NCBI GenBank assembly: GCA_022565665.1
Contig: JAIUMI010000006.1
Location: forward strand, 1-64,000
Direction of reading: 5' to 3'
Source: Glycocaulis sp.
GTDB lineage: Bacteria > Pseudomonadota > Alphaproteobacteria > Caulobacterales > Maricaulaceae
Length of the DNA stretch: 64,000 nucleotides
Shown in pieces: positions 21,265-62,669 of this stretch (the stretch's first letter is position 1; each line of letters begins with the position of its first letter). The notes beneath the pieces are model-generated. The model worked only from the letters and a program-made list of their open reading frames with translations. It was not told the DNA's origin and made no database searches. Both the position numbers and the translations under genes were made by a program.

Positions 21265-21303
21265 GATATATCGGTTTCCTGATCCAATTCTGAGGAATCC
21301 ATC

Positions 21304-45641: not shown

Positions 45642-45657
45642 AAATGATATATCTTTT
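45642..45657. promoter_or_regulatory. GATATATC palindrome, copy 1
   Basis: AAATGATATATCTTTT lies between the divergent monoamine oxidase and membrane-protein genes. It matches the perfect palindrome at 48468-48483 with one change. It looks like a transcription-factor operator. Confidence 0.6.
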
Positions 45658-45721
45658 ACAGCAAGTAGGGTCATGACATGTCCCGCCCCATGAGAGCGGG
45701 ATACTTCACGGGGAGGCAGAT

Positions 45722-46414
45722 ATGGGCGAATGGATCAGCGCGCACGAGCTGGAAATCCTGCGCTGGCTTCACATTCTGGCGATGGTCTACTGGCTGGGCG
45801 GGGAATGGGGCGTGTTCCAGACCTCCTACAAGGTGGTCAATCCGCGCCTGCCGCTGGAAGAGCGCCAGCGCCACATGGATACCGCCTACCGCATCGACAT
45901 CCTGGCGCGCACCGGCATCATCACCCTGCTGCCGCTCGGCATCCATATGGGCTATCTGTGGGGTGTGCAGCCGCTGGGCGGCTGGTGGATGGTGGCCATG
46001 TGGGTCATCTGGGTAATCTGGATGGGCATTACCTGGGGCGCGTTCCTGACGCGCGGCAAGCCGGTCTGGCACCTGCTGTCGGGGATGGAGGACTGGAGCC
46101 GCTACATCCTCATCCCGCTCCTGATCATCACCGGCCTCACCTCGCTGTTCGGCATGGGTCCGTTCGAGGCGGGCGAAGGCCAGAAATGGTATGCCGCCAA
46201 GGTGCTCACCTATGGCCTCGCCCTGATTATCGGGGTGATCCTGCGCCTCATCATGCATGAATGGCAGGCCATGTTCCGCGTGCTGGCGCAAGGGCCGGAC
46301 GCGGGCGTGGAGATGAAGCTTGAAAAGTCGATCCAGCTGGGCCGCAACGTGGCCTATCTCTACTGGATCCTCATCTCGGCGACCTGCTTCTTCGCCTCGG
46401 TGAAGCCGTTCTGA
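45722..46414 (+). CDS. Integral membrane protein
   Basis: This 230-residue protein has about five or six transmembrane helices and many Trp. It opens with ILRWLHILAMVYWLGGEWGV, and has WMVAMWVIWVIWMGITWGAF in the middle. I do not know its family; it faintly resembles CopD-like or DUF2269 proteins. The ribosome site GGGGAGG is strong. It is the rightward gene of the first GATATATC divergon, so its expression may follow that regulator. Function unknown. Confidence 0.7.
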   Translation: MGEWISAHELEILRWLHILAMVYWLGGEWGVFQTSYKVVNPRLPLEERQRHMDTAYRIDILARTGIITLLPLGIHMGYLWGVQPLGGWWMVAMWVIWVIWMGITWGAFLTRGKPVWHLLSGMEDWSRYILIPLLIITGLTSLFGMGPFEAGEGQKWYAAKVLTYGLALIIGVILRLIMHEWQAMFRVLAQGPDAGVEMKLEKSIQLGRNVAYLYWILISATCFFASVKPF

Positions 46415-46436
46415 CAAGCGCGTGACGGGGCGGGCC

Positions 46437-46931
46437 CTAGCGGCCCGCCTCCTCCGCCTCACCCTCCGCGATCACCGGCACCACGCCCGGCAGGCCGTCA
46501 AACAGCATCACGTCGAAATCGCCCCAGCCGCCCGCGATGCGGGCCTCGGCCAGTGCGCGGTATTCGGGATCATTCCAGAAATCGCGCGCGGCTTGCGCAT
46601 CCGGCCAGAGCGAGAGCACGACGGAGCGGAAGCCCAGCTCCCCCTCCAGCGTCTCCAGATTGCCTGTCAGCGCGAGATAGCGCCCTCCATGACGCTCATA
46701 GAGAGGGGCGAGGTGTGCGACGTAGTTGGCACCGAAACTGGCGCGGTCATGCACCGTGCCCATCACCACCATATAGGCCGCGCCGCTCGCCGCCGGAGCG
46801 GGCGCTTCGGCCTCGACCGGGGCAGGTTCAGCGGCTGGCGCAGGCCGGTTGATCTCGGCGAGCCCCAGCCCGGCTGCGACACCGGCAAAGGCGCATACCG
46901 CGCCCACGATCACGGTTGTGGTCTTGACCAT
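46437..46931 (-). CDS. Secreted/anchored DUF1330 protein
   Basis: This 164-residue protein has an N-terminal hydrophobic segment (VGAVCAFAGVAAGLGLAEI) and a Pro/Ala-rich linker, then a DUF1330 ferredoxin-like domain (YMVVMGTVHDRASFGANYV and SVVLSLWPDAQAARDFWND). The family's reactions are unknown. Its ATG immediately follows the stop of the SSS symporter gene (TAAATG), so both are on one transcript. Its anchor places the domain outside the cytoplasm. Confidence 0.8.
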   Translation of the reverse strand: MVKTTTVIVGAVCAFAGVAAGLGLAEINRPAPAAEPAPVEAEAPAPAASGAAYMVVMGTVHDRASFGANYVAHLAPLYERHGGRYLALTGNLETLEGELGFRSVVLSLWPDAQAARDFWNDPEYRALAEARIAGGWGDFDVMLFDGLPGVVPVIAEGEAEEAGR

Positions 46932-48416
46932 TTAACTGACCTCCTGAGAAGCGGGGGCGGCCTTGCGCCGCCAGGTGAATACGAGCAATAGCGGGATGAA
47001 CCAGGGCACCACGCGTTCAAACGGCGAGCCGGGCAGCGCGGCAAGTCCCGCCAGGAAGCCGCCCATGCCGCCCGTGCCCTCAAGGCCCATGCCCCGGATG
47101 AGGAAGAACAGCGCGCTCATGCCAAAGCCGAGCGCCATGGCAGCAAGGATGGCGCCGGTGGCCGGTTCGACGCGCGCCACGCGGGCAACGACGATCGGCC
47201 CGAAGGCGGCCCCCAGCGCCGACCATGAGAACAGCACCCGGTCAAAGATCGTCGCCGGGATGGCCAGCGCCATCACCACCGCAGCGGCGCACAGGGCCGC
47301 CATCACGATGCGCGAGATCATGACTTCCCGGCCCGGATAGCGCGCGGACACACCCATATCGTGCGCCACGGCGGCAGACGTCGCCACCAGCAGGGAATCC
47401 ACCGTCGACATGACGGCCGACAGCACGGCGGCGATGATGATCCCGGCAAGTACGGGCGGGAGCAGTTCTGCGGCGAGGGTGTAGAACAGCGCCTCGCCCT
47501 CCTGGCCTGCCCCCAGCAGCGCGCGGCCCGAGAGCGCCAGCGTGATCATGCCGGCATAGACGATGACGCCCCAGCCGATGGAAACGGCAAAGGCGCGCTT
47601 CCTCGCCGCATCATCCTTCACCGCCATCAGGCGGCTCATCAGTTGCGGCTGGCCGAACGTGCCAAGCCCGATCCCGGCCCCGCCGAGCGCAAAACCGATG
47701 AAGATGAAGAAGGCGCGGTCACCGGTCAGCGAAAGATAGCCCGCGGGCGCGCTTGCCTGCAGTGTTGTCCACACCTCCGCCGGGCCGCCGGCAGCAATCA
47801 GGGTCAGCACTGGCAGGAGGACCGCAATGAGGGCCATCATCGCCCCTTGCAGCGTGTCGGTAACGCTGACCGCCCAGAACCCGCCCAGCAGCGAATAGAT
47901 GAGGATGATGCCCGCCCCGACCAGCACGCTTTCCAGCCGGCCAAGACCGAACTGGTTCTCGAACGCGATGGAGGCCGCCCCGAACTGGGCCGCGATATAG
48001 AAGATGAAGCAAAAAAGGACGAGCAGCGCGCCCACCCAAAGGATCGCCGTGCGGCCTGTGCCCTTTGCGCGGGCGGCGAGGAAATCTCCGAGCGTCACCT
48101 GATTTTCGGCTGCGCTTTCGGCGCGCATGCGCGGGCCGAACCAGACCCACATCACGACGTAGCCGCCGAGTATCCCCGGCACCATCCACAGCGCGGACAG
48201 CCCCACCGCATACAGAAAGCCGGAAAAGCCCAGGAGCACCCAGGCAGAGGAGGTGGAGGCGGCATAGGACAGCCCCGCCACCCAAGGCCCCAGCGCCCGC
48301 CCGCCGAGCAGGAAGTCCGTCTCTGTGTGATTGAGCCGCGAGGCCCACAAGCCCACGCCCACAAGCACAAGCTTGTAGATGACAAGCGTCAGCAATACCG
48401 CCAGTTCCGCGCTCAT
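46932..48416 (-). CDS. Sodium:solute symporter family transporter
   Basis: This 494-residue protein has about 13 transmembrane helices. Sodium-symporter marks are GLSYAASTSSAWVLLGFSGF, FGQPQLMSRLMAVKDDAARK and IIAAVLSAVMSTVDSLLVA. It resembles PutP/PanF-type carriers of amino acids and organic acids. The gene is the leftward one of the second GATATATC divergon, opposite the DUF1838 operon, so it may import the compound degraded by that operon. Substrate unknown. Confidence 0.9.
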   Translation of the reverse strand: MSAELAVLLTLVIYKLVLVGVGLWASRLNHTETDFLLGGRALGPWVAGLSYAASTSSAWVLLGFSGFLYAVGLSALWMVPGILGGYVVMWVWFGPRMRAESAAENQVTLGDFLAARAKGTGRTAILWVGALLVLFCFIFYIAAQFGAASIAFENQFGLGRLESVLVGAGIILIYSLLGGFWAVSVTDTLQGAMMALIAVLLPVLTLIAAGGPAEVWTTLQASAPAGYLSLTGDRAFFIFIGFALGGAGIGLGTFGQPQLMSRLMAVKDDAARKRAFAVSIGWGVIVYAGMITLALSGRALLGAGQEGEALFYTLAAELLPPVLAGIIIAAVLSAVMSTVDSLLVATSAAVAHDMGVSARYPGREVMISRIVMAALCAAAVVMALAIPATIFDRVLFSWSALGAAFGPIVVARVARVEPATGAILAAMALGFGMSALFFLIRGMGLEGTGGMGGFLAGLAALPGSPFERVVPWFIPLLLVFTWRRKAAPASQEVS

Positions 48417-48467
48417 GCGCCTTCCCCCTTGATGGCGGCACGTTAGCCCTGCCTGCCGCCCATCTGC

Positions 48468-48483
48468 AAAAGATATATCTTTT
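48468..48483. promoter_or_regulatory. GATATATC palindrome, copy 2 (perfect)
   Basis: AAAAGATATATCTTTT is a perfect 16-nt palindrome between the divergent symporter and DUF1838 operon starts. Copies lie at 45642 and 62583. It has the form of an operator for a dimeric regulator. Confidence 0.65.
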
Positions 48484-48554
48484 AGGCTTCCCTGTGCGCG
48501 CAGCCGCGCTAGTCTGAATCACATACGGCCACTCTGGCATTGAGGGAGAGAGTA

Positions 48555-49361
48555 ATGAAAGGCTTTGCGTTGGCGGCTATCGCCGCGTTCACGCTGTCTG
48601 CGGCGCCTGCGCTGGCACAGGCCACGCCCGGCGGATTTGACGAGGAGTCGTTCCGCGTCTTCACCGATGCCCGCTTCGGTACCGGCGAGCCGGTCTACTG
48701 GTATTCTGCCGGGACGGTGCGCGCCTATCCCTCAGGCGAAATCCTTTTCATCATGGAGGGCTATGACACCGCGCGCGGCGAGCATGTGGAGGGCATGGAG
48801 CGCCCGACCGCACGCCAGTTCAACCGCAAGACCTATGTCTACCGCGATGCCGAAACCGGCGAGATCCTGCGCGAGTACAACGGCAATCCGGTCGGCACAA
48901 TCGCCTATGACTACCAGTTCATCACCTATGAGCTGTCAGACGACGGCTTCCTTGAAACGGTGGTGGAACAGGGCCGCGCGCCGCGCCTGCAACGCTTCGG
49001 GCCGGACCGGGACATGGGCGTGACCCGGCTCGGCGATACTTACGTGTTCACCGCGCCGGTATTCCTCGACTTCCCGATCCCGGGAACGGAGGCGCGCTAT
49101 GAGGCGTGGGAGAATTACGATTTCTTCGTGACGCCGGACGCGGACATCTCCCACCCGCTGACCCTGTCCTGGGCGCGTTATGGTGCCCTGCCTGCATGGG
49201 CTGGCGGCGGGCCTGCCATCATCCACATGGTCAGCTGGCGTCTCGACCGGTTCGAGGACGTGCCCGAGCGTTTCCGCGCCTATATCGAGGCCGAAGCCCC
49301 GCTCTGGATGCAGCCGCCTGCCGATCTGGACGAAATCCGCCAGTTGCAGGGCGCGCAATAG
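48555..49361 (+). CDS. DUF1838 family secreted protein
   Basis: This 268-residue protein has a signal peptide (GFALAAIAAFTLSAAPALAQ) and the DUF1838 pattern, including SWRLDRFEDVPERF and LWMQPPADLDEIRQLQ near the end. The family is common in proteobacteria and has no assigned function. The ATG at 48555 has GGGAGAG upstream. It opens the rightward operon with CpeT-like, amidase, two deacetylases, MmcQ and nitrilase-like genes, and so is probably the periplasmic part of that pathway. Confidence 0.82.
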   Translation: MKGFALAAIAAFTLSAAPALAQATPGGFDEESFRVFTDARFGTGEPVYWYSAGTVRAYPSGEILFIMEGYDTARGEHVEGMERPTARQFNRKTYVYRDAETGEILREYNGNPVGTIAYDYQFITYELSDDGFLETVVEQGRAPRLQRFGPDRDMGVTRLGDTYVFTAPVFLDFPIPGTEARYEAWENYDFFVTPDADISHPLTLSWARYGALPAWAGGGPAIIHMVSWRLDRFEDVPERFRAYIEAEAPLWMQPPADLDEIRQLQGAQ

Positions 49362-49363
49362 AC

Positions 49364-49975
49364 ATGATGCTGGCCGCCCTCCTCCTCACGCTCGCGACAC
49401 CTGCCAGCGGCGGCGATATTGCACGCTGGCTGGAAGGCCGGTTCAACAATGGCGCCCAAGTGCAGGCGGAGGGCGATCCCGCGCGCCCGCATCTTTACGT
49501 GATCCATGAGGGCTTCACCTCGGATGCCGTGCCGGGAGCGCTGATCTACGCCCAGCTGCATGTGGGTGGACCGGATGGCGAGGTATACCGCCAGCGCGTC
49601 TATGCCTTTGAAGACCCCAGCGATGATGGCCGCCTGCGTATGGCCGTCTACACGCTCGCCGATCCCGCTTCACTCGCCAGCCCGGACGGCAGGGCCGAAC
49701 GCCTCGCCTCGCTGACCGCCAATGATCTCGTTCGCTCCGACCCGGAATGTGATTTCCACTGGCAGCGCGACGGCGGGAGCTATGCCGGGGAGATTGAAGA
49801 CGGGGCGTGCTTGATCACCTCCAGCCGGACAGGGAGGGAGATGATCATCACCGCGCGCTTCACGATTGATGCGGACATTTTCACCCATATCGAGGCCGGG
49901 CGGTTTGCCGAAAGCGGCGAAACCGCTTTCGATGCGCCCGGCGGCGTGCCCAATATCTATGACCGGCTGGACTGA
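49364..49975 (+). CDS. CpcT/CpeT chromophore lyase-like protein
   Basis: This 203-residue protein has a signal peptide (MMLAALLLTLATPASGGDIA). Its mature part shows the CpcT/CpeT pattern: WLEGRFNNGAQVQ, LHVGGPDGEVYRQRVYAF, CDFHWQRDGGSYAGE and a downstream conserved GACLI. In cyanobacteria such proteins attach bilins to phycobiliproteins. No phycobiliprotein can be expected here, so the ligand must be different. It starts 2 nt after the DUF1838 gene. Family identification is from memory of the pattern; I regard it as likely. Confidence 0.72.
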   Translation: MMLAALLLTLATPASGGDIARWLEGRFNNGAQVQAEGDPARPHLYVIHEGFTSDAVPGALIYAQLHVGGPDGEVYRQRVYAFEDPSDDGRLRMAVYTLADPASLASPDGRAERLASLTANDLVRSDPECDFHWQRDGGSYAGEIEDGACLITSSRTGREMIITARFTIDADIFTHIEAGRFAESGETAFDAPGGVPNIYDRLD

Positions 49976-49989
49976 AAAACGGACCTGAC

Positions 49990-50685
49990 ATGACGCTTCG
50001 CTTTGAACCCACCATGATCCGCTCAAACAAGACCGCGCGGGAAATCTTCGAGGAGGTGCGCGCCAACCCGGCCCGCGCGCGCTTCGGCTTTGGCGGGAAG
50101 CTCGCCATCATCAATGTCGACCCGCAAAAGGCCTATACCCGCCCGGACCTCTTCCCGAAGACGGCCTATGTCACTGATCCGGACCAGCTGACCCATATCA
50201 ACCGCATCTCGAAAGCGGCCCGCGCCAAGGGCCTGCCAGTAGTCTGGACCCATGTCGCCTATATGGACAATGCCGCCGATGCAGGCGTGTGGGGCACGCG
50301 CACCGATACGCCAGACAGCTTGCAGAACATCAAATACGGCTCGGAGCGCCATCAGTTTGATGAGCGCGTGGAGATCGATGAGGCGGTAGACGCGGTCTAC
50401 ACCAAGCGCATGCCCAGCGCCTTCTTCGAGACGCCGCTGGCGAGCTTCCTGACCTGGCACAAGGTGGACACAGTCGTGATCACCGGCGGGTCTACATCGG
50501 GATGTGTGCGCGCCACGGCCGTCGATGCGCTCTCCCATGGCTACCGCGCCATCATTCCCATGGAGTGCGTGGCCGACAAGCATGAGAGCTATCACTTCGC
50601 CAACCTCACCGATCTGCAGCTGAAATACGCGGACGTGGTGGAGGTGAAGGAAGTCGATGACTGGATCGCGGGCTACAAGGGATGA
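49990..50685 (+). CDS. Isochorismatase-fold cysteine hydrolase (carbamoylsarcosine amidase-like)
   Basis: This 231-residue protein has the catalytic triad of the family: Asp in IINVDPQKAY, Lys in YTKRMPSAFFET and Cys in GSTSGCVRATAVDA. The last motif (STSGCVRATAVDALSHGYR) is typical of amidases such as N-carbamoylsarcosine amidohydrolase and ureidoacrylate or biuret hydrolase. It probably hydrolyses a C-N bond of an amide or ureide in the cytoplasm. The end overlaps the next gene by 4 nt. With the PuuE-like genes it suggests a ureide or imide route. Confidence 0.86.
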   Translation: MTLRFEPTMIRSNKTAREIFEEVRANPARARFGFGGKLAIINVDPQKAYTRPDLFPKTAYVTDPDQLTHINRISKAARAKGLPVVWTHVAYMDNAADAGVWGTRTDTPDSLQNIKYGSERHQFDERVEIDEAVDAVYTKRMPSAFFETPLASFLTWHKVDTVVITGGSTSGCVRATAVDALSHGYRAIIPMECVADKHESYHFANLTDLQLKYADVVEVKEVDDWIAGYKG

Positions 50686-51629
50686 AACCTGATCCCAATC
50701 TCTATGATTACTGGCCATACCGGGACCGGCCGAAAATCGTCTGGCCGGGGGGCAGGAAGCTCGCCTTCTGGATCGCGCCCAATATCGAGTTCTACGAGTT
50801 TGATCCGCCGAAAAACCCCAAGCGTCCCGGCTGGCCGCGCCCTGCGCCGGACGTGGTGGGCTATTCCCAGCGCGATTATGGCAACCGGGTTGGCCACTGG
50901 CGGCTGATGGAGGCGATGGACCGGCACGGGCTCAAGGGCTCGGTCAGCCTCAATGTCGCGATGTGCGATCACTGCCCGGAGATCATCGAGGCATGCGTGC
51001 AGCGCGGCTGGGAGTTCTTCTCCCACGGCATCTACAATACCCGCTATTCCTACGAGATGGACGAGGCGCAGGAGCGCGCGGTGCTGGAAGATTCCATCCG
51101 CACGGTGGAGGCCGCGACGGGCCAGCGCATTCGCGGCTATCTCGCCCCTGCCCTGACCCACACGCCGCGCACGCTCGACCTCATTGCCGAATATGATTTC
51201 TGGTACACGTGCGACCTCTTTCAGGATGACCAGCCCCAGCCGGTGAAGACGAAAACCGGCAAGCTGGTCTCCATGCCCTACTCGCTGGAGGTCAATGACG
51301 TCATCACCTATGGCGCGTTGGCCATGGATCCGTGGCGCTATGCCGATATCCTCAAACGACAGTTCGACCAGCTGCTGGAGGAGGGCGAGACCAGCGGCAC
51401 GGTGATGTGCATTCCGCTGCACGCCTATCTGGTCAGCCAGCCCCACCGTTTGCGCGCCTTCGAGACGGCGCTCGCCTACATCACCGGGCACACGGACGAG
51501 GTGTGGTTCACAACCGCGCAGGAGATCGCGGGCTTCTACCGCGAGAATTGCTGGGACCAGACGATTGCCGACATCGCCGCGAAGGGCTGCGCCACCGGCG
51601 GCACCGGCTTTGAGGGAGAGACGGCATGA
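50682..51629 (+). CDS. Polysaccharide-deacetylase-family hydrolase (PuuE/imidase-like), full motif
   Basis: This 315-residue NodB-fold protein belongs to the branch that holds PuuE allantoinase and bacterial cyclic imidase, since it shows LVSMPYSLEVNDVITYG and PLHAYLVSQPHRLRAFETAL rather than chitin-deacetylase motifs. FFSHGIYNTRYSYE contributes to the active site. It may open a cyclic imide or ureide ring. It overlaps genes on both sides by 4 nt. Its paralogue follows directly. Confidence 0.85.
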   Translation: MKPDPNLYDYWPYRDRPKIVWPGGRKLAFWIAPNIEFYEFDPPKNPKRPGWPRPAPDVVGYSQRDYGNRVGHWRLMEAMDRHGLKGSVSLNVAMCDHCPEIIEACVQRGWEFFSHGIYNTRYSYEMDEAQERAVLEDSIRTVEAATGQRIRGYLAPALTHTPRTLDLIAEYDFWYTCDLFQDDQPQPVKTKTGKLVSMPYSLEVNDVITYGALAMDPWRYADILKRQFDQLLEEGETSGTVMCIPLHAYLVSQPHRLRAFETALAYITGHTDEVWFTTAQEIAGFYRENCWDQTIADIAAKGCATGGTGFEGETA

Positions 51630-52549
51630 CCCTCCCTTCAGAATATCTGGAATATCCGCGCCGCGGCCATGGTCAGGACATGGACCGGCATGACTGGCAG
51701 CTAGCCAAGGACCGCAAGCCGGTAAGGCTCGCCAACGGCAAGGCGCTGGCCGTGATGATCGTGGTCAATTGCGAGTTCCACCCGATCAATCCGGCGAACA
51801 CGCCCTTCCGCCACCCGGCAGGCATGGTGACGCCGTATCCGGACCTGCGCCATTTCACCAGCCGCGATTATGGCAACCGGGTCGGCGTTTTCCGCATTCT
51901 CGATTCGCTGAAAAGCCATGGCCTGAAAGCGACCTTCCCGGTCAGTGCCGCCCTGCTGACGCGTGCACGGCCGCTGATCGAGGCTATCGTGGCGGACGGC
52001 CACGAGATCGCCGCCGCCGGCCTTCATGGCGATGCCATTCACTGGTCAGGCTTAGGCCCAGACGAGGAGAACCGGCGCGTGGAGGCTGTGCGGACTGCGT
52101 TTGGCGAAGCGGGCCTGTCACCCGTCACCTGGATGAGCCCCGCACGCCAGCAGAGCTTCGCCACGCCCGATATCCTCACTGCACACGGCTTTACCCGCAC
52201 GCTGGACTGGGAAACCGATCAGGTGCCGGTTCCGCTGCGCACGGATAGCGGCCCGCTGACCGCCCTGCCGCTCCATAACGAGCTGGAAGACTTCAAGCTC
52301 ATGATCGAGCGCCATCAGAGCGAGGCGCTGTGGCGCGACCAGGTCATCGAGGCGAAGGACTTCCTACTGGCCGAGAGCCAGACGCACGGCGCGAGCGTCT
52401 TCGGCTTCACCCTCACCCCGTTCGTGACCGGCCAGCCTTTCCGGATATGGGCGCTGCGCGAGCTTCTGGCGGCGCTGGCGGGCGACGAACGCGTCTGGTG
52501 CGCGGGCGCGGACGAGATTGCGCAGGCGTTTGGGCAGATAGACCCATGA
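51626..52549 (+). CDS. Second polysaccharide-deacetylase-family protein, altered motif
   Basis: This 307-residue paralogue shares RDYGNRVGVFRILDSLKSHG and the C-terminal TLTPFVTGQPFRIW segment with the first. The two His of PLHAYLVSQPHR in that one are replaced by Thr and Phe here. It may have another substrate or be a non-catalytic partner subunit. The two genes are coupled by a 4-nt overlap, which fits a heteromer. The GLHGDAIHWS segment may still be a metal or substrate site. Confidence 0.82.
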   Translation: MTLPSEYLEYPRRGHGQDMDRHDWQLAKDRKPVRLANGKALAVMIVVNCEFHPINPANTPFRHPAGMVTPYPDLRHFTSRDYGNRVGVFRILDSLKSHGLKATFPVSAALLTRARPLIEAIVADGHEIAAAGLHGDAIHWSGLGPDEENRRVEAVRTAFGEAGLSPVTWMSPARQQSFATPDILTAHGFTRTLDWETDQVPVPLRTDSGPLTALPLHNELEDFKLMIERHQSEALWRDQVIEAKDFLLAESQTHGASVFGFTLTPFVTGQPFRIWALRELLAALAGDERVWCAGADEIAQAFGQIDP

Positions 52550-52947
52550 GTGCGCTCAGCGGTTGGCCGGAACTGCGCGCATTCGCGCTGGCACTGGACC
52601 TGCCAAAGGTCGAGGACAGTGTCTCATGGGGCAATCCGGGCCTGAAAGCGCACGGCAAGCTTTGGACCTGGTGGGCGCCGCAGGAATATGCCGACGCACC
52701 GGTCTTCAAGGTGGCGCGCGAAGAGCAGGAGTTTCTGCTGGAAGCCGCCCCTGAGGTCTTCTTCATCACCGACCATCACCGCCCCTACGGCCTGATCCTG
52801 ATGCACCCCGAAGCGTTCGACGCGGACTGGGCACGCAGCAATCTGTTCCGGGTCTGGCGTCAGCAGGCACCCAAGCGCTTCCTGAGAGATTGGGACATGC
52901 AAAACGCTGATCGACTGAAGGAGTTCGGGTATGACGACACGCCGTGA
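52546..52947 (+). CDS. MmcQ/YjbR family protein
   Basis: This 133-residue protein has the MmcQ/YjbR DNA-binding-like fold: VEDSVSWGNPGLKAHGKLWT near the start and RPYGLILMHPEAFDADW later. The role of the family is unknown. The ATG overlaps the stop of the second deacetylase (ATGA) and its end overlaps the nitrilase-like gene by 17 nt, so it belongs to the operon. Confidence 0.82.
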   Translation: MSALSGWPELRAFALALDLPKVEDSVSWGNPGLKAHGKLWTWWAPQEYADAPVFKVAREEQEFLLEAAPEVFFITDHHRPYGLILMHPEAFDADWARSNLFRVWRQQAPKRFLRDWDMQNADRLKEFGYDDTP

Positions 52948-54046
52948 CATACTGACCGGTGCTGCAGCTCTGGGCGCGCTTTCGCTTCTGCCCGGTGCCC
53001 ATGCGCAATCGACACGCTTCTCTGCCATGGCGCTGCAGATGCGCTGCGATGCGGTCAATCAGGACCGCAACCGGCGCGATGCCCGCGCACGCATGATGGC
53101 GAGCATTGGCCGCATGCGCGCCCAGATCGCTACCTCAAAGGCGTTCCTGCGCACGTTCAACGGCACCGAGCTGAAGCTGATCGTCGTGCCGGAATACTTC
53201 ATGACCGGCTTCCCGCTGGGCGAGAGCCGCACCGAATGGCGCGACAAGGCCGCCATTGATGTGGACGGCGCCGAATATGAGGCGATGGCCGCGATTGCCG
53301 AGAGCCAGAACCTCTATCTGTGCGTCAATGCCTATGAGACCGACACCAACTTCCCCGAGCTCTACTTCCAGGCCAATGTGATCTTTGCGCCCAATGGCGA
53401 TCAGATACTGCGCTACCGGCGCATGATCTCGCTCTATACGCCAAGCCCGTTCGATGTGTGGGACCAGTATCTCGACATTTACGGCTATGACGCGGTGTTC
53501 CCGGTGGTGCATACCGAGGTGGGCGTGCTGGCCACGATCGCCTCAGAGGAAATCCTCTATCCCGAGATCGCCCGCATGCACGCCATGAAGGGGGCAGAGG
53601 TGTTCCTGCACCCGACAAGCGAGGTGGGGTCAACCGAGCTGACGCCGAAACACATCTCCAAGCGCGCACGGGCACTGGAGAACATGGCCTATGTCATCTC
53701 CGCCAACTCGGCAGAGATTGTCGGCACGCCGATTCCGGCGGCCTCCACCGACGCGATGAGCAAGATCGTGGACTGGAATGGCCGCGTGCTGGCCGAGGCG
53801 CAATCGGGTGAAAGCCTCAATGCCAATGCCGTGCTGGACCTTCACGGCTTGCGCGGAGCGCGGGCCCGCACCGGCATGACCAATCTGATGTCCCGTCAGC
53901 CCTGGGCGGCCTACGCGCCTGGCTATGAGGCCGCGCAAGGGGCGCAGCCCAACGCGCTGGCCGAAGGCGGTATTGATGACCGGGCGGCGGCGCTGGCCCG
54001 CCAGCGAGAGGTTATCGAGCGTCTTCAGGCGCTTGGCGGGAACTGA
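52931..54046 (+). CDS. Nitrilase-fold protein with Cys and Lys replaced
   Basis: This 371-residue protein has a twin-arginine-like signal (MTTRRDILTGAAALGALSLL) and a carbon-nitrogen hydrolase fold. The Glu site is intact (LIVVPEYFMTGFPLGE). The Lys position reads RYRRMISL (Arg), and the nucleophile Cys position reads TIASEEILYPEIAR, with Ser where Cys is expected. It may be inactive in the classic sense or use a different chemistry. Its end overlaps the convergent permease gene by 35 nt. It would be exported, unlike the cytoplasmic amidase in the same operon. Confidence 0.78.
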   Translation: MTTRRDILTGAAALGALSLLPGAHAQSTRFSAMALQMRCDAVNQDRNRRDARARMMASIGRMRAQIATSKAFLRTFNGTELKLIVVPEYFMTGFPLGESRTEWRDKAAIDVDGAEYEAMAAIAESQNLYLCVNAYETDTNFPELYFQANVIFAPNGDQILRYRRMISLYTPSPFDVWDQYLDIYGYDAVFPVVHTEVGVLATIASEEILYPEIARMHAMKGAEVFLHPTSEVGSTELTPKHISKRARALENMAYVISANSAEIVGTPIPAASTDAMSKIVDWNGRVLAEAQSGESLNANAVLDLHGLRGARARTGMTNLMSRQPWAAYAPGYEAAQGAQPNALAEGGIDDRAAALARQREVIERLQALGGN

Positions 54047-55322
54047 TCCACTGCATGGCGAAATAGATCACCGCAGCGATCATCAGGAACGCTGCCGTGA
54101 TCGCCATGGAGCGCAGCGGCACCTGGCTTAAGAGCACCAGCGAACCCAGCACGGCGAGCACCGGGATCGTCCAGCCCAGCGGCAGGCGCATGGCGTGGCC
54201 GCTTTCCGGCTCGCGCTTGCGGATCACGGGCATGGTGGCGATGCAGCCGACATAGATCAGCACGCGTACGAACGCGCTCATCGCGGCCAGGGCGAAGAAG
54301 TCTCCGAACACGGCCAGCACCGAAGCGATGACAGCAAAGAAGAGAATGGAATTGACCGGCACATGCGTGCGCTCGCTCACCTTGCCGAACCAGCCTGGCA
54401 GGGTCTTCTCGCGCGCCATGGCATAGGTCAGGCGCGGCGCGGTAACGACCGTGCCCGTGGCGTTGCCGCCAATCGAGACGATCACGCCGATGGTGAGAAG
54501 CAGTGCGCCGGCCGGGCCGAACAGGATCGCCCCGGCATCGACCAGCGCACGCTCGGAATTGGCGAGATCGGGCACCACGGCAACGCTGACGATCTGGATG
54601 ACGACATAGAGCAGGGCCACCACGCCCAGCGCCCAGAACAGGCCCAGCGGCATGGAGCGCGCCGGGTTGCGTGTCTCGCCCGCCGGGATGACGGCAGATT
54701 CCCAGCCTACAAAGGCGTAGATGACCAGCAGCACCGCAGCGCTCCATTGCGCGCTTTCAGGAAAGCCGGTGGAGTTTTCCGGGAAAAGCGAGGGCTCGAT
54801 ATGAAACAGCCCCACCAGCGCGATTGCCAGCAGGGGCAGGAATTTGAGAATGGTCAGCAGCCCCATGGCCCGCATGGCGGGCTTGGCGCCTGCGATATTG
54901 ATCCCCGCCAGCAGGGCGATAATCGCGATCAGCGCGGCGATCCGCCCCGGCCCGTCGGAGAGCACGGGAAAGAAGAAGGCTATTGAAGCGACCATCAGGT
55001 TCACATTGGCCGCAAAGGCGGTGATGCGCGTCGCGTAGACGGCAATGCCGGTCTGGAAGCCCGCAAACCTGCCGAATGCGGAGCTCACATAGAGCACGGG
55101 TCCGCCGGTGGATTTGAAGCGGCTGGCAAGCTCGGCAAAGCAGGCGACGATCAGGCCCAGCAGCGCAGCGCAGACCACATAGACCAGCGGGCTCCACACC
55201 CCCATCAGGGCGGCCGCCCCGGCGGGCACGGCGAATATGCCCGCCCCGATCATGCCGTTTACGGCCAGAAGCCATATGCCCCAGGCCGTGATCTGCCGTG
55301 ACAGCTTTTCCTCGCCCGCCAT
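54012..55322 (-). CDS. APC-family amino acid/amine permease
   Basis: This 436-residue transporter has twelve predicted helices. The APC substrate loop is in NGMIGAGIFAVPAGAAALMG near the N-terminus, with VYAFVGWESAVIPAGETRNP in the middle. It probably carries an amino acid or amine into the cell. The ribosome site AAGGGGG sits inside the arm of a 10-bp hairpin directly before the ATG. It is convergent with the nitrilase-like gene, and may supply substrate to the neighbouring operon. Confidence 0.88.
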   Translation of the reverse strand: MAGEEKLSRQITAWGIWLLAVNGMIGAGIFAVPAGAAALMGVWSPLVYVVCAALLGLIVACFAELASRFKSTGGPVLYVSSAFGRFAGFQTGIAVYATRITAFAANVNLMVASIAFFFPVLSDGPGRIAALIAIIALLAGINIAGAKPAMRAMGLLTILKFLPLLAIALVGLFHIEPSLFPENSTGFPESAQWSAAVLLVIYAFVGWESAVIPAGETRNPARSMPLGLFWALGVVALLYVVIQIVSVAVVPDLANSERALVDAGAILFGPAGALLLTIGVIVSIGGNATGTVVTAPRLTYAMAREKTLPGWFGKVSERTHVPVNSILFFAVIASVLAVFGDFFALAAMSAFVRVLIYVGCIATMPVIRKREPESGHAMRLPLGWTIPVLAVLGSLVLLSQVPLRSMAITAAFLMIAAVIYFAMQWISSRQAPEDAR

Positions 55323-55326
55323 GTCT

Positions 55327-55350
55327 CCCCCTTGAAAATGTTCAAGGGGG
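55327..55350 (-). promoter_or_regulatory. Perfect hairpin enclosing the permease ribosome site
   Basis: CCCCCTTGAA (55327-55336) and TTCAAGGGGG (55341-55350) are exact inverse repeats with a 4-nt loop. In the leftward transcript the AAGGGGG ribosome site of the permease lies in the 3' arm, 7-8 nt from the ATG. The stem would hide it from ribosomes. It may be a translational switch or a terminator of the previous gene, although there is no T-run. Confidence 0.55.
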
Positions 55351-55395
55351 CAGACTGGGCCGATACGGCCCCGGCGGGCAAGGCTTTAGGCGCCG

Positions 55396-55824: not shown

Positions 55825-55826
55825 GA

Positions 55827-56177
55827 TTAGCGGCGCAGGATGAAGCCCAGCGCCACGCCGGCCGCCGCGGCAATGCCGAGCGCCTTCCACGGGCTCTCAC
55901 GGGTTTCCTTCACCACCTTGCCTTCCAGCCCGCTCCAGTAATCAGCGACCTCCTCGACAAGATGTTCGCTGGCCTCCTTGCCATGGCGCACGGTGGATTT
56001 CGCGGCCGTCTTGGCCTCGTGAGCGCTGACCTTGCCGACCCGGCCCATCTGATCGACCAGCTCCCGGAACTCGCGCCGCAACTCTTTCAGCTCGGCCGAC
56101 AGGGCGGCCGTATCGGTCTCTTCCTGGACGGCCTCCTTAGCGTCTTTCACGGCTTTGGTGGCTCTCGAATTACTCAT
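55827..56177 (-). CDS. DUF883/ElaB-YqjD-like protein
   Basis: This 116-residue protein has a long helical body (ALSAELKELRREFRELVDQ) followed by GKEASEHLVEEVADYWSG and a C-terminal membrane helix (ALGIAAAAGVALGFIL), as in ElaB/YqjD proteins that tether to the inner membrane and may bind ribosomes. The ATG at 56177 has GGAGAG before it. It precedes the holin-like gene. Confidence 0.82.
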   Translation of the reverse strand: MSNSRATKAVKDAKEAVQEETDTAALSAELKELRREFRELVDQMGRVGKVSAHEAKTAAKSTVRHGKEASEHLVEEVADYWSGLEGKVVKETRESPWKALGIAAAAGVALGFILRR

Positions 56178-56354
56178 CGGCAGCTCTCCATGTCTTGTCG
56201 TGAAAGGCTCTGCCGCGAACGGGCAGTGCCTCGACCGGGCCAAGCCCCCCAGCTTGCAGGCGCGAAGCGCGGCAAAGCCCTTTCAAAGGAAGGGGCGCGC
56301 GGTCTAGAAGTGAATAAACGCATGTCCGTCACTTCCGGTTCCAAAGGAGTTTTC

Positions 56355-57659: not shown

Positions 57660-57662
57660 TCC

Positions 57663-59753
57663 CTACTCCACCACCCGCACGTCCGGCACGCTCGTGAAGG
57701 GGCGGATGCCGAATTCGGGATAGATTTCGCTCGGGAAATAGACCCGGCCATCGGCGACTACCATCGAGATGGTCTTGATCTCGCGCAAGTCACCGGTCGG
57801 GTCGCCCGGCACCAGGAAGAAGTCAGCGAGATAGCCCGGCTCAATGCGGCCCAGTTCATCGTCGACGCCCAGATATTCCGCCATGCCATGGCTCGCCCAG
57901 GCGAGGATTTCAGCCGGCTCCATGCCGATCTGCTGATACAGCTCCAGCTCACGGTGATAGGTGAAGGAACCGCCCAGATCGGTGCCCGGCACCATGAAGA
58001 TGCCGCGCTCGCGCATCCGGCTCAGCATCTCGATGATCTGGTCGAACGCACCGCGATAGGCGAGGTCTTCCTCCTCGCTATTGATCGCCGACATGGCGCT
58101 GCGCGCGCCGCGCTGGGCGTTGACGGGCAGATGGTCGACATAATCGACCGCGCCCCGGTCCACCTCGCCATTGCGCGAAAGCAGAAGCCGCTCATGGATG
58201 GCGAGCGTCGGATCGATGGCAATGCCGCGCTCGGCCATCGCGCTGATCGTGGCCTCCACCGCAGGGCTGTCTAGATCGAGCACCGGCAGGCGTTGCAGCG
58301 CGGTCAGACGCAGAAGCGTGCGCGTGTCCTCGTCAGACTCCAGCACCCAGCCCAGCATGAGCTGGTTGATATGGACGATCTCGTCATAGCCCGCCGCGAT
58401 CATCGCATCGGCATTGGTGAAGGCGGGGATGTGCCCGGATACGCGCATGCCCCGCTCGCGCGCGGCGGCGATCACGGCCGGGATCCAGTCCGGGCGCATG
58501 GAGTTGTAGATCTTGATCTGATGGAAATCGCCCCGGTCGGCATGGTCATGGACGGCCTGCACGGCCTCTTCCTCGGTTGCGACCAGCACGCCGGAATTGG
58601 AGTTGAACGGGCTCACCCCTTCGATGAAGGCGCTGCGATAGACGCGCGGGCCGGCGACACGGCCCGAGCTGATATTCCCGATCAGCCGGTCCAGCACCTC
58701 ATTGTTATTGCCCATATCGCGCACACTGGTGACACCGGCAGCAATGTTCAGGAAGGCGGCCGTCTCGCCGAGATGGCCGTGCATCTCGAACATGCCGGGC
58801 AGAAGCGAACCGCCCGCCCCGTCAATCTCCACCTCGCCATTTGCGCCCGGCGCATCGACCGCTTCGATGGCAGTGATCCGGTTGCTCTCGAACACGACCG
58901 AGACCGGCTCGCCCAGCGCCTCGGTCAGCGGATCGAAGACCCGCACATTCCGGACGCGGACCGGGGCGTCATAGTCGCGCACCACGCGCGACTGGATATC
59001 TTCAAACCGGCGCGCGCCAAACTCGGCGGCCAGCTCGCGCAGTCGCTCGTCCTCGTCTTCAAACCCCTCGGCCAGCACGGCAAAGGAGGGCGAGATGGTG
59101 CCGAAGAAGGCATCGCCCTCCATCACGAAATAGGACGGGTTCAGCCCCGTGCCGGACAGCGCCCAGATGGTGACCTCGCGGCTGTCCTCGCCATTGGAGA
59201 CGGTCAGATCCTGCATATGGGTCAGGCGCAGCTCCCCGCCCGGCAGGGCGTCAAGCGTGTGCCCGGGCCGGGCCAGAAGCGCCCGCGCCACAATCGCGAA
59301 GGTATAGGGGCTGGAATTTTGCGGCATGTAGAAGGCGGGGCCGTTCGATACCGCCTCGTTTTCGCCGGTCGTATCGCGCCAGAAGGCGGTCCCGTTTTCA
59401 AGGCGGAATACCTCGTCGACGGGGTTGCCGAACGTGGTCGCCCCTTCGGCCAGCCAGGTCACAGGCAGACCGCTCTCATCAAGCATCACGATTTCATTGA
59501 AGGTTGGCCCGCGGCCGTTATTGCGGAACTCGTAGAAGATTTCATAGCCCGTATCGGTCGGCGTGACTTCAACCGCGCCGATGGGCGTGCCGGTGGTCAG
59601 GACCGTGAAGGTGCGCGCTTCGTGTTCGGGGTGGGCAAGGCGCGCAGTTTCGATTGCGCTGTCAGACGATTGCGGCGCGGAGATCTCGCTTGCTGGCTCG
59701 CAGGCCGCCAATACAAAACCGGCCAGAATGACCGTCAAAGCCTTGAATTGCAT
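57663..59753 (-). CDS. Lipoprotein metal-dependent amidohydrolase
   Basis: This 696-residue protein has a lipoprotein signal (VILAGFVLAACEP). The C-terminal half is an amidohydrolase barrel: HGH in LPGMFEMHGHLGE, a likely carboxylated Lys in FHQIKIYNSM, His in RVSGHIPAF and DEIVHINQ, and Asp in VPGTDLGGSF. The first ~260 residues have no domain I recognise. It would act on the envelope side and hydrolyse an amide or ester such as a dipeptide or cyclic amide. It ends 3 nt from mgtE, in convergent orientation. Confidence 0.83.
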   Translation of the reverse strand: MQFKALTVILAGFVLAACEPASEISAPQSSDSAIETARLAHPEHEARTFTVLTTGTPIGAVEVTPTDTGYEIFYEFRNNGRGPTFNEIVMLDESGLPVTWLAEGATTFGNPVDEVFRLENGTAFWRDTTGENEAVSNGPAFYMPQNSSPYTFAIVARALLARPGHTLDALPGGELRLTHMQDLTVSNGEDSREVTIWALSGTGLNPSYFVMEGDAFFGTISPSFAVLAEGFEDEDERLRELAAEFGARRFEDIQSRVVRDYDAPVRVRNVRVFDPLTEALGEPVSVVFESNRITAIEAVDAPGANGEVEIDGAGGSLLPGMFEMHGHLGETAAFLNIAAGVTSVRDMGNNNEVLDRLIGNISSGRVAGPRVYRSAFIEGVSPFNSNSGVLVATEEEAVQAVHDHADRGDFHQIKIYNSMRPDWIPAVIAAARERGMRVSGHIPAFTNADAMIAAGYDEIVHINQLMLGWVLESDEDTRTLLRLTALQRLPVLDLDSPAVEATISAMAERGIAIDPTLAIHERLLLSRNGEVDRGAVDYVDHLPVNAQRGARSAMSAINSEEEDLAYRGAFDQIIEMLSRMRERGIFMVPGTDLGGSFTYHRELELYQQIGMEPAEILAWASHGMAEYLGVDDELGRIEPGYLADFFLVPGDPTGDLREIKTISMVVADGRVYFPSEIYPEFGIRPFTSVPDVRVVE

Positions 59754-59837
59754 GATACCGGCCTCCCCGCCGCGTGTTTGTGTAGCTGACTACAAGGATA
59801 ACACGAGGCCGCAGAGGGGGGATAAGTTTGTCAGTGG

Positions 59838-60716
59838 CTATTCAGCCGCATCCCGGCTGGCCGGATCATATTCGGCGCCCAGCGCCTTCATCTCATCGAG
59901 ACCCAGCACGCGGTTCAGCCCGTCAAAATCGAGCATGCGCCCGCGATAACCGGCGGTGGAGCCGGTGTCCTTCAGCCCTTTGAGGAAATCCTGCGCGGCA
60001 AAGGTCAGTGTGCGCACCATGGCACCGGGCGTGATGACAAGCTGATAGCCGATGGCCTCCAGCTCCTCTGCGGTGCGCAAGGGGGTGCGCCCGCCCTCGA
60101 CCATATTGGCCAGAAGAGGGATGCGGCCCGCAAACCGGCTGGCAATCGCCTGCAGCTCGTCGGGCGAGCGCGGCGCCTCGACGAACAGAAGGTCCGCTCC
60201 GGCAGCCAGATACGCCTCGGCGCGCTCCAGCGCGGCCTCGACCCCCTCCACCGCAATCGCATCGGTACGCGCGATGATCAGGGTTTCCTCCGAGCGGCGC
60301 GCATCGGCGGCGGCACGCACCTTGCCCACCATTTCCTCCGTCGTGATCAGCGACTTGCCGGACAGGTGCCCGCAGCGCTTGGGCAATTGCTGGTCTTCCA
60401 ACTGGATGGCGCTGGCGCCGGCCTGTTCAAACGTGATCATGGTGCGCTGGACATTGAGCGCATTGCCGAACCCGGTATCGGCATCCACGATCAGCGGCAG
60501 GGAGACCCGCTCGCGGATACGGCGCACGACGCCCGCCACTTCCTCGGCGCTGACCAGCCCGAGATCGGGCCGGCCGAGCGCGGTATAGGCAATCGAAGCG
60601 CCTGAGAGATAGGCGGCTTCAAACCCCGCCTGTTCGACCAGAAGCGCCGACAGCGCGTCATAGACGCCGGGAGCCAGAACGGCCGGTTTACGCGCGAGGC
60701 GTGCCTTCAAACTCAT
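59838..60716 (-). CDS. Isocitrate lyase/PEP mutase superfamily lyase
   Basis: This 292-residue barrel enzyme has LIVDADTGFGN for the metal site and LEDQQLPKRCGHLSGK, where the KRCGH Cys is the general acid of lyases in this superfamily such as 2-methylisocitrate lyase and 2,3-dimethylmalate lyase. Oxaloacetate decarboxylases and PEP mutases usually lack it, so a C-C lyase is likely. It overlaps the LeuD-like gene by 4 nt. The expected reaction is cleavage of a branched malate to pyruvate and another acid. Confidence 0.83.
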   Translation of the reverse strand: MSLKARLARKPAVLAPGVYDALSALLVEQAGFEAAYLSGASIAYTALGRPDLGLVSAEEVAGVVRRIRERVSLPLIVDADTGFGNALNVQRTMITFEQAGASAIQLEDQQLPKRCGHLSGKSLITTEEMVGKVRAAADARRSEETLIIARTDAIAVEGVEAALERAEAYLAAGADLLFVEAPRSPDELQAIASRFAGRIPLLANMVEGGRTPLRTAEELEAIGYQLVITPGAMVRTLTFAAQDFLKGLKDTGSTAGYRGRMLDFDGLNRVLGLDEMKALGAEYDPASRDAAE

Positions 60717-61225
60717 TGAATCAACTCCCTGGCGCCAAAGCGTGTCTTGAGGGACTCCATCAGCCCTCCCGCCTCGATCATGGTTCTCAAATGCTCCGGC
60801 ATCGGGCTAACGGGATAATCCCTGCCGGTGGTGATATTGCTGACCCGGCCCGCAGCGAGATCAAGGCTGATCGCATCGCCCGCGCTGACCGCCCCCTCGT
60901 GGGGGAAGATCAGGGCCGGCAGGCCGATATTGATGGCGTTACGGTAGAAAATGCGGGCAAAGGATTTGGCAAACACCGCCGCAACACCCAGCTTTTTCAG
61001 CGAGATGGCAGCCTGTTCGCGGCTGGAGCCAATGCCGAAATCGGCGCCAGCAAAGACGAAATCTCCGGCGCGGACAGTGGACGCAAAACCCGGATCAATC
61101 GCTTCAAGGCAATGACGGGCAAGCCCGTCCGGGCCGAGCTTCATCGCATGGCCGGGCGCCAGCACATCGGTGTCGATGCCATCGCCGTAAACGAATGCCC
61201 GGCCTGTTTTGGCTGCTGCGCTCAT
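60713..61225 (-). CDS. LeuD-like hydratase small subunit
   Basis: This 170-residue swivel-domain protein has YGDGIDTDVLAPG at the start and the phosphate/substrate loop GADFGIGSSREQAAISLK, typical of the 3-isopropylmalate/dimethylmaleate hydratase small subunit. It completes the active site of the large subunit encoded upstream. The ATG overlaps the large-subunit stop by 4 nt. No leuA or leuB is beside it, so leucine synthesis is not the obvious role. Confidence 0.87.
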   Translation of the reverse strand: MSAAAKTGRAFVYGDGIDTDVLAPGHAMKLGPDGLARHCLEAIDPGFASTVRAGDFVFAGADFGIGSSREQAAISLKKLGVAAVFAKSFARIFYRNAINIGLPALIFPHEGAVSAGDAISLDLAAGRVSNITTGRDYPVSPMPEHLRTMIEAGGLMESLKTRFGARELIQ

Positions 61226-62514
61226 GCTGCCCGCCTCCGCTCTGCCAGAAGCGTGCGGGGATCGATGATCTTCCCGGCGATCGCGCCTGCCGCCACCGTG
61301 AAGGGCGAGCCGAGCCAGACTTCCGCGTCCTTGTGGCCCATGCGGCCCTTGAAATTGCGATTGGTGGAAGACAGGCATACCTCGCCTTCGGCCAGCAGCC
61401 CTGCGCCCAGCCCTGCGCACGCGCCGCAGCCGGAGGGCAGCATGATGGCCCCCGCTTCAGAGAGGATGGGGAGCGTACCGTCCTTCGCCGCCGCCTCGGT
61501 CACCTTGGCAGACGCCGGCGCGACCAGCAGGCGAACGCCTTTGGCGACCTTCTGGCCTTTCAGGACCGAGGCAGCCATGTGCAGGTCGGAGAGTTTCGCG
61601 CCGACGCATGCGCCGATATAGGCCTGATCGATCCGAACGCCTTCATGGGCGGTGATGTCAGCGGAATTGGAGGGGCTATGCGGCGCGGCAACCTGCGGAG
61701 CGAGCGTAGAGGCATCCAGCGTAAACACGCGCTCATAGGGCGCGCCCTCATCGGAACGCCAGCGGGTGATATCGGCCTCCTCGGCCTTGCCGCCATGGGC
61801 ACGGATATGGGCAAGGGTCGTGGCGTCGGGCTCGACCAGACCCGTCTCTCCGCCCAGCTCTGCGGCCATGTTGGCCAGCACCGTGCGCGCTTCCATGTCC
61901 ATGGCGCGCACCGCCTCGCCGCCATACTCGATGGCCTTGAAATGATTGCCCATGCCGAGCTCCCGGCAGAGTAGCAGCATGATGTCCTTGGCGCTCACCG
62001 CCTCGCCCAGCGCGCCGGACACCTCCACCCGGATGGTTTCGGGCACCATGGTCCAGGTCTCGCCGGTTGCGACAATCGCGGTCATGTCGGTCGCGCCGAA
62101 ACCGGCGGCATAGCAGCCAAACGCGCCGGCATTGGTGGTGTGGGAATCCCCGCCCGCCAGAAACAGTCCGGGCCGCAAATGGCCATGCTCGGGCAAGATG
62201 ACATGGCAGATGCCGCGCATGTCGTAGAAGTGCTCGACGCCAAAGTCGCGGGCAAAATCGCGGGTGGTTTTCAGGATCGCCGCGCTTTCCGCATCGACCG
62301 CAGGCACATAGTGATCCGACACGATCACGACGCGGGACGGATCCCACAGACCCACACCCAGCGCTTCGAGCCGGGCGCGCCAGCGGCGCGGGCCGGAACT
62401 GTCATGCGCCATGGCAAGGTCCACGCTCACCGTGACGATCTCGCCCGGCTCCACACGGCTCTTCCCGGCGGCGCGCGCCAGGATTTTCTGAGCCAGAGTA
62501 GCGGGTTGCGTCAC
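61222..62514 (-). CDS. LeuC-like hydratase large subunit (aconitase family)
   Basis: This 430-residue aconitase-family subunit has the 4Fe-4S Cys ligands at about residues 305 and 366-369 ([11 protein letters not shown] and [11 protein letters not shown]) and [19 protein letters not shown]. It (de)hydrates a malate-type acid. Together with the small subunit and the KRCGH lyase it forms a three-gene module like dimethylmaleate hydratase plus dimethylmalate lyase of Eubacterium barkeri nicotinate fermentation. The substrate may be dimethylmalate, methylisocitrate or a related acid. It is the leftward gene of the third GATATATC divergon. Confidence 0.87.
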
Positions 62515-62582
62515 GGTGTCAGTTTCCTCTAAAGCCTGCCATGTGCGAGGTTACGCACTCTGGCATTGGCCCGGCAATGGAT

Positions 62583-62597
62583 AAAGGATATATCTTT
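62583..62597. promoter_or_regulatory. GATATATC palindrome, copy 3
   Basis: AAAGGATATATCTTT lies between the divergent LeuC-like and acyl-CoA dehydrogenase genes. It differs from the copy at 48468-48483 by one extra G. Its place in the promoter region fits an operator. Confidence 0.55.
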
Positions 62598-62669
62598 ATA
62601 ACATTTGTTGGGAAGCCCCGATCAGCAATCGCCGCAAATTTGCCAGCAGGCTACACAGGAAACACGACC

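Follow-up and report, generated by a model that had tools for sequence, protein, structure and literature searches.

What connects three similar palindromes that lie between divergent genes in a stretch of Glycocaulis sp. DNA? The stretch (the window) covers 64,000 nt of contig JAIUMI010000006.1, hereafter contig 6, and the palindromes, given without strand, occupy positions 45642..45657 (AAATGATATATCTTTT, weight-matrix score 25.7, 91 and 64 nt to the flanking start codons), 48468..48483 (AAAAGATATATCTTTT, a perfect 16-nt palindrome, score 26.3) and 62583..62598 (AAAGGATATATCTTTA, score 24.2, 68 and 71 nt). From sequence comparisons, we consider it fairly probable that they belong to about 11 promoters on two contigs, which would be controlled by one GntR-type protein and would serve a single pathway for pyrrole-derived cyclic imides.

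Palindromic sites in two gene clusters

In all three window sites the 16-nt palindrome is perfect or nearly so, and 51-91 nt separate it from either flanking start codon, with the starts as placed here. A preliminary description of this DNA had located all three at these places, each between divergent genes, as is indeed the case; only its third site became one base longer (62583-62598) once aligned. It had also found no copy of the motif inside genes. This holds for the four window copies of the core GATATATC, which has A/T arms in the three sites, provided that the dehydrogenase gene behind the third site starts at ATG 62670. The automatic open reading frame (ORF) call opened this frame at 62541, thereby putting the site inside the ORF, but we preferred 62670 because the match to solved enzymes starts only past this position. 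The four core copies compare with a mean of 0.32 in shuffled sequences, none of 100 shuffles reaching four. The fourth copy, at 21265, has a different context: it overlaps TGTTATAATATAAC upstream of a GTPase-like gene and is included in TATGTTATAATATAAC (21245-21272) ahead of the same gene. We take TGTTATAATATAAC and TATGTTATAATATAAC to be Zur-box-like, and the start of the downstream product presumably resembles a COG0523-type GTPase. Since the sequence context differs, placing this copy under the same regulator was set aside.

The source genome (G000; 2.74 Mb, 31 contigs) carries 24 copies of bare GATATATC, with 7 for the reversed control, and 17 of the 24 are outside the 11-site set described below, several of them within ORFs. 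The armed pattern AADGDTATATCHTT is found in nine distinct places, all nine in contigs 6 and 11 (control 0), and AADGATATATCHTT in six, three in the window and three in contig 11 (reversed control 0). With up to 2 mismatches, AAAGATATATCTTT is found in nine places, seven of them in these two contigs, and its reversed control in two. The expectation that copies would be rare in unrelated promoters or genes is borne out for the armed patterns, but not for the bare core. A weight matrix trained on 7 of the 11 sites was scanned over 104 kb of contig 6 and 50 kb of contig 11, 154 kb together; the rest of the genome was covered by pattern search, and 111 kb of it was also scored by the matrix. In the 154 kb, 11 sites score 18.8-26.3, followed by 12.4 (the Zur-like place) and 9.3, and 40 first-order Markov sequences of equal length reached 14.55 at most. 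With an alternative matrix using a GC-rich background, the 11 sites score 23.6-31.2. Six of the 11 lie in divergons. Collectively, these data indicate that the palindrome is almost certainly an operator shared by one regulon. A possible twelfth site, TGATGATATATCATTA, is present near a contig end at contig 19:297 (locus L032; score 17.2, or 21.4 with the alternative matrix).

A GntR/UTRA protein and the sites in relatives

The preliminary description placed the three divergons under one dimeric regulator not encoded in that part of the window. Indeed, a regulator gene is present on the minus strand of contig 6 at 68860-69705, 4.9 kb past the window end. Its product combines a GntR domain (PF00392, E 6e-18, 64.6 bits for a cut-off of 27) with a UTRA domain (PF07702, E 6e-31). 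The sites, their conservation, this gene and its co-occurrence with the sites all support control by one dimeric protein, and the GntR/UTRA (HutC-type) protein very probably binds the palindromes. Most likely it would repress these promoters until a pathway intermediate releases it, repression being preferred to activation by analogy with the HutC subfamily.

Of the 137 family genomes, 12 encode a regulator with 67% identity or more. All 12 have at least one site and 11 have at least two, a number that is reached in 0 of the remaining 125. In genus g15, the corresponding counts are 9/9 genomes with the regulator and 0/6 without it (p = 2e-4), though such counts and Fisher values overstate independence because the genomes are related. 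Overall, AADGATATATCHTT occurs in 28 of the 137 genomes; its seven places in G081 represent four distinct ones, three being repeated at contig ends.

We compared 40 stretches around most of the family sites, the genes being labelled by BLAST to G000 genes. The LeuC promoter has a site in all 12 close-regulator genomes (G000, G005, G081, G084, G086, G088, G089, G090, G092, G093, G094 and G097), and the other neighbour of this site is the dehydrogenase gene in 10; the G005 contig ends there and the G081 neighbour is unlabelled. The DUF1838 promoter has a site in 10 of the 12. The site of G081 precedes the isochorismatase gene rather than DUF1838, and in the fragmented assembly of G090 the isochorismatase gene was not found. 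Among genomes for which these stretches were compared, sites also recur at the 230-aa gene, the HapK-SDR/methyltransferase divergon, the TRAP/amine oxidase pair and DUF3598. Beyond the family, loci of Hyphomonas, Henriciella and Parvularcula have the motif ahead of the isochorismatase gene, whereas those of Microbulbifer, Kordiimonadaceae and others have it ahead of the gene for the regulator. Conservation in relatives, on which the preliminary description staked its proposal, is thus found upstream of orthologues in G005, G081, genus g15, Hyphomonas, Henriciella, Parvularcula, Microbulbifer and others. A Hyphomonas-type cluster is also present in L131, titled as an Acidobacteria metagenome-assembled genome, where the regulator shares 77% identity with its L114 counterpart; the cluster may be there through transfer or through mis-binning.

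A profile scan with the isochorismatase alignment over genome contigs gave loci from the best 80 of 130 relatives, 56 of which encode a GntR-type homologue. In 11 of these 56 (L110, L114, L125, L137, L156, L167, L173, L174, L176, L180 and L182), a site scoring at least 15.5 lies in the promoter region of the gene that encodes the regulator itself. The recognition helix follows the operator: SRIT[VAI]KR is found in 25 of the 56 regulators, and 21 of these 25 loci have a site at this threshold (exceptions L127, L128, L130 and L136), whereas SRVTVR is found in the other 31, with a site in 0/31. Upstream of 30 Halomonas-type regulators, no exact 10-bp palindrome is common (maximum 3/30). A longer GTATTA-type palindrome with up to 3 mismatches is present in 28 of 31 loci, but the pattern was derived from the same loci, without a control, and serves as a lead only.

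Loci L141-L184, leaving aside Microbulbifer, Kordiimonadaceae and regulator-less loci, share a compact module of TRAP, LeuC-like, GntR, lyase, isochorismatase, PDA1, PDA2 and flavin adenine dinucleotide (FAD) protein genes. They include Halomonas, Marinobacter and Terasakiella, with GTATTA...TAATAC as candidate operator beside the SRVTVR regulator. In Kordiimonas-type loci (L112, L117-L119, L126), the neighbourhood includes paired VOC-type proteins as well as genes for hydantoinase/oxoprolinase A and B, the Pfam run behind the latter covering L112 only. In G000, a further CpeT-family gene adjoins a distant GntR paralogue (26%) at 194986-196574 of contig 2, possibly a sister regulon, and a similar pair is found in G005 (contig 7, 42616-44157).

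In G081, the sites corresponding to those of contigs 6 and 11 lie on one contig at 3,388-3,414 kb, with the regulator at 3,403 kb. The two clusters, on separate contigs in the G000 assembly, thus form one island in G081. Three sites of G081 contig 1 (about 6-17 kb and 3403-3414 kb) repeat at a constant offset near 3,396,632, and the regulator match is in three pieces at one contig end. The contig ends probably overlap, through assembly redundancy.

Proposed pathway and the genes behind the sites

To judge from their protein families, the controlled genes probably specify an imide-to-dicarboxylate pathway. The single catabolic pathway proposed earlier finds support in genus g15, where the isochorismatase gene is present in 8/9 genomes with the regulator and 0/6 without it, although the gene also occurs in 13 family genomes without a close regulator. 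Uptake would proceed through a TonB receptor and TRAP and SSS transporters, and CpeT, DUF3598, DUF1838 and HapK-family proteins would handle the oligopyrrole together with flavin oxidases. The maleimide ring would be opened by the PDA hydrolases and the product deamidated by the isochorismatase-family enzyme; LeuCD would hydrate the resulting dialkylmaleate, which the PrpB-like lyase would then cleave. Hematinic acid, a maleimide that remains from bilins and chlorophyll, would thereby pass through methyl-cis-homoaconitate and methylhomoisocitrate to pyruvate and glutarate, the latter leaving via a CaiB coenzyme A (CoA)-transferase and glutaryl-CoA dehydrogenase. These reactions would be the one-carbon homologue of those that end the methylcitrate cycle. 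Such a yield of glutarate would explain why the gene of this dehydrogenase and LeuC have a common promoter region; the two Marinobacter loci (L149, L181) have the dehydrogenase gene next to the compact module. A second branch, composed of PDA3, CaiB, a MaoC/mesaconyl-CoA-hydratase-like protein, CitE and ACAD2, could accept methyl-ethyl or methyl-vinyl maleimide. The overall end products would be pyruvate and acetyl-CoA.

Tetrapyrrole fragments may be the substrate, a proposal for which we see the chances as evenly balanced. Of the 24 family genomes that have the isochorismatase gene, 15 also have a CpeT-family gene, compared with 0 of the 113 that lack the former, and a profile of the CpeT group matches CpcT 4o4o (E 2e-16). 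Furthermore, a homologue of red-chlorophyll-catabolite (RCC)/bilin reductases is encoded in five of six Microbulbifer loci, and a weak site heads its gene run in those five. The most extended version of the proposal is put forward tentatively, with somewhat less than even confidence: the GntR regulon would enable bacteria to feed on linear tetrapyrroles, either bilins or chlorophyll catabolites, its core, which converts hematinic acid to pyruvate and glutarate, would be the methylcitrate cycle's one-carbon homologue, and it would be common to Alpha- and Gammaproteobacteria. The turnover of heme, chlorophyll and phycobilins is very large. If the proposal is true, the gene set could serve as a marker and, together with a regulator whose operator can be read, would make consumption of their fragments testable in culture and countable in metagenomes. 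As a class probe, CpeT2 was rejected, being found in 2/385 genomes only, namely G000 and one with an unrelated context. Conserved proteins at L137:19438-20166, L180:13482-14216 and L112:12559-13587 gave no Pfam match.

The first window site separates AMOX1 (44210..45550, minus strand; start MHDVIIIGA at 45550), a flavin amine-oxidase-family oxidoreductase (PF01593, E 3e-67), from a 230-aa protein (45722..46414, plus) without Pfam match, described earlier as a membrane protein; orthologues of its gene have upstream sites in L064, L066, L071 and L082. A small DUF1330-like protein follows (46488..46775, minus; tblastn extent only, 56% to an L120 protein with PF07045). The second site lies between a sodium:solute symporter (46932..48416, minus; PF00474, E 2e-58) and a run of plus-strand genes. 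This run opens with a DUF1838 protein (48555..49361; PF08894, 26.1 bits for a cut-off of 25), a predicted beta-barrel (model pLDDT 80.9) that is an uncertain candidate for the calycin fold, and a CpeT/CpcT-family protein of the bilin-lyase family (49388..49975; PF06206, E 3e-20, 73.3 bits for a cut-off of 21), whose start is uncertain, as the ORF opens at 49106. Next is the isochorismatase-family amidohydrolase, a proposed substituted-maleamate amidase (49990..50685; PF00857), with N-carbamoylsarcosine amidohydrolase and 3ot4/3uao as PDB relatives, the latter being, we assume, the maleamate amidohydrolase NicF. It is followed by PDA1 (50682..51629; PF01522), a polysaccharide-deacetylase-fold hydrolase and proposed cyclic imide hydrolase related to 1z7a, 3cl6, PuuE allantoinase and 3qbu, and by a second PDA-type hydrolase, PDA2 (51626..52549), which has no Pfam match and reaches the NCBIfam allantoinase PuuE model at a sub-cut-off E of 1e-14. 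A carbon-nitrogen hydrolase (PF00795, E 4e-23) occupies 52931..54046, also on the plus strand.

On the minus strand, the third site heads the LeuC/homoaconitase-family large subunit (61222..62514; TIGR01343, 477 bits for a cut-off of 386; closest PDB entry homoaconitase 4kp2) and the LeuD/DmdB-family small subunit (60713..61225; TIGR02087, 168 bits for a cut-off of 109), so that TIGR01343, TIGR02086 and TIGR02087 are all above cut-off. Behind them lies a PEP-mutase (phosphoenolpyruvate mutase)/isocitrate-lyase superfamily lyase (59838..60716; PF13714), proposed to act as an alkylmalate or methylhomoisocitrate lyase; its PDB relatives include carboxyphosphonate mutase, petal death protein, methylisocitrate lyases and 2,3-dimethylmalate lyase. 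After the lyase gene comes an amidohydrolase gene (57663..59753, minus; PF01979) that adjoins lyase and LeuC genes in several relatives and whose membership in the pathway is uncertain. On the plus strand, the site heads glutaryl-CoA dehydrogenase (62670..63869; 579 bits to 3gnc), in which R94, S98, Y369 and E370 of human 1sir, which we take to be its substrate and catalytic residues, are all conserved.

In contig 11, sites are present at 23109, before DUF3598; at 28626, between an acetyl-CoA hydrolase-type gene and PrpD2, the first gene of PrpD2-PrpD1-ligase-amidase, the ORFs on either side being called too long at the start; and at 35983, before CitE. Further sites are at 39564, between HapK-SDR and a methyltransferase gene, with the HapK-family homologue first behind the site; at 42714, before VOC2-MDR-hydrolase; and at 49642, between the TRAP transporter and a second amine oxidase. 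The last two are at 54823, before the TonB receptor and then a CpeT-family gene, and at 55860, before a second DUF1838.

Alternative readings and known systems

If the palindromes were chance AT-rich promoter sequences without a common regulator, the 24 core copies in the genome, 17 of them beyond the 11-site set and several in genes, would be easily understood, but the score gap in contigs 6 and 11, the zero controls of the armed patterns and the retention of sites at orthologous promoters across genera leave practically no room for chance. The sites could instead be bound by another dimeric regulator that co-occurs with the GntR protein; indeed, the promoter of the GntR gene in G000 has no site, and GATATATC differs from the HutC motif GTMTAKAC given in the part of PMC4494728 at hand. 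Such a regulator is nevertheless quite improbable, given that a site directly precedes the GntR gene in 11 of 56 other loci, that presence and absence of sites and regulator match, that the recognition helix tracks the operator type, and that the 4-nt spacing is the same as in HutC operators, with variants carrying a one-sided GT.

A more serious alternative keeps the regulon and its GntR regulator but assumes as substrate another cyclic imide, lactam or pyrrole, such as prodigiosin-like tripyrroles, a nicotinate- or hydantoin-type ring or an environmental imide, the CpeT and DUF proteins being general small-molecule binders. HapK is linked to prodigiosin, and a HapK-family protein is within the set. 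The hydantoinase/oxoprolinase A and B genes of the Kordiimonas-type clusters point in the same direction, as does the lack of a CpeT match in the three compact loci listed, from Halomonas (L146), Marinobacter (L149) and Terasakiella (L147). On the other hand, CpeT is tied to the pathway within the family (15/24 vs 0/113), Microbulbifer has the bilin/RCC-reductase homologue, and a glutaryl-CoA dehydrogenase gene in the same divergon suits a carboxyethyl side chain. We consider a different substrate rather unlikely.

Several observations, together with the relatedness of the genomes, weigh against a GntR-controlled pathway for tetrapyrrole fragments. The 111 kb of other contigs, chosen for core copies or weak matches, give 17.2 (contig 19:297), 15.1 (contig 31:1427) and 12.8, the first two near the weakest cluster site (18.8). 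Exactly one site each is found in 16 of the 125 family genomes without the close regulator, and some of these may be chance, while the best score in the regulator's own promoter in G000 is 2.0. Among the 24 isochorismatase-bearing family genomes, 13 lack the close regulator, seven having a more distant one and six none at E 1e-20; G002 and G003 have the isochorismatase gene and a 52-53% regulator but no AADGATATATCHTT. Among the enzymes, the lyase reaches 294 bits vs the curated PrpB equivalog cut-off of 354, which makes it a superfamily member only, and CaiB 191 bits vs the succinate--glutarate CoA-transferase cut-off of 750. As to the pigment link, the Microbulbifer reductase-gene sites score 14.5-17.7, four of the five being no better than the best Markov control, and RCC reductase is absent from G000 and from 15 of 16 other genomes searched. 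CpeT, DUF3598 and DUF1838 could bind other ligands. Finally, the first cleavage of the oligopyrrole has no enzyme assigned; the Microbulbifer Rieske protein is unmatched in the compared G000 stretches, and no search was aimed at heme oxygenase.

The proposed tetrapyrrole-fragment pathway can be set beside several known systems. In the 2-methylcitrate cycle, methylaconitate hydration is followed by the PrpB lyase. The scheme proposed here has the same logic, an aconitase-family hydratase and then a PEP-mutase-superfamily lyase giving pyruvate and a dicarboxylate, but it would employ a homoaconitase-type LeuCD instead of AcnB/AcnD, its proposed product is glutarate, and glutaryl-CoA dehydrogenase shares the promoter region. 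Nicotinate fermentation by Eubacterium barkeri ends with dimethylmaleate hydratase and dimethylmalate lyase. Here, too, a LeuCD/DmdAB-type hydratase adjoins a PEP-mutase-superfamily lyase, which in both cases would act on dialkylmaleates, although the present genes belong to Proteobacteria and stand beside imide hydrolases. The part of PMC7609661 at hand merely cites papers on petal death protein and dimethylmalate lyase. The cyclic imidase HxnM of Aspergillus nidulans has PuuE and 3qbu as structural relatives, and its role comes from deletion strains, according to the available text of PMC9304392. As with HxnM and the amidase HxnN, a PuuE/PgdA-fold hydrolase is proposed here to open an imide ring before an amide hydrolase frees the nitrogen; the ring described there is a piperidinedione and the downstream route is different (PMC9304392, same text).

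With CpcT/CpeT phycobilin lyases and with RCC reductase and ferredoxin bilin reductases, the common ground is family membership, within the regulon or linked to it in Microbulbifer, but the role here would be catabolic. In the excerpt of PMC10151467, bilin reductases of heterotrophic bacteria serve bilin synthesis. The portion of PMC7318184 at hand lists hematinic acid among chlorophyll degradation products and mentions reports of hematinic acid and maleimides as oxidation products from senescent leaves and lake sediments, maleimides being undetected in its own samples. Among the matches listed from open-licence PMC literature, no paper deals with genes for bacterial bilin or hematinic-acid catabolism, which does not establish their absence from print.

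The regulator itself is closest in design to the HutC subfamily, whose members recognise NyGTMTAKACNy, in which 4 nt separate GT from AC (PMC4494728, part at hand); the present operator has this length too. Tetrapyrrole- or imide-type genes are not among the HutC ligands named in that part. As there, a GntR domain is combined with UTRA, the palindrome has 4 nt between its outer dinucleotides and the sites lie in divergons; unlike there, outer GA/TC replaces GT/AC in most of the present sites, and GT is retained on one side in some.

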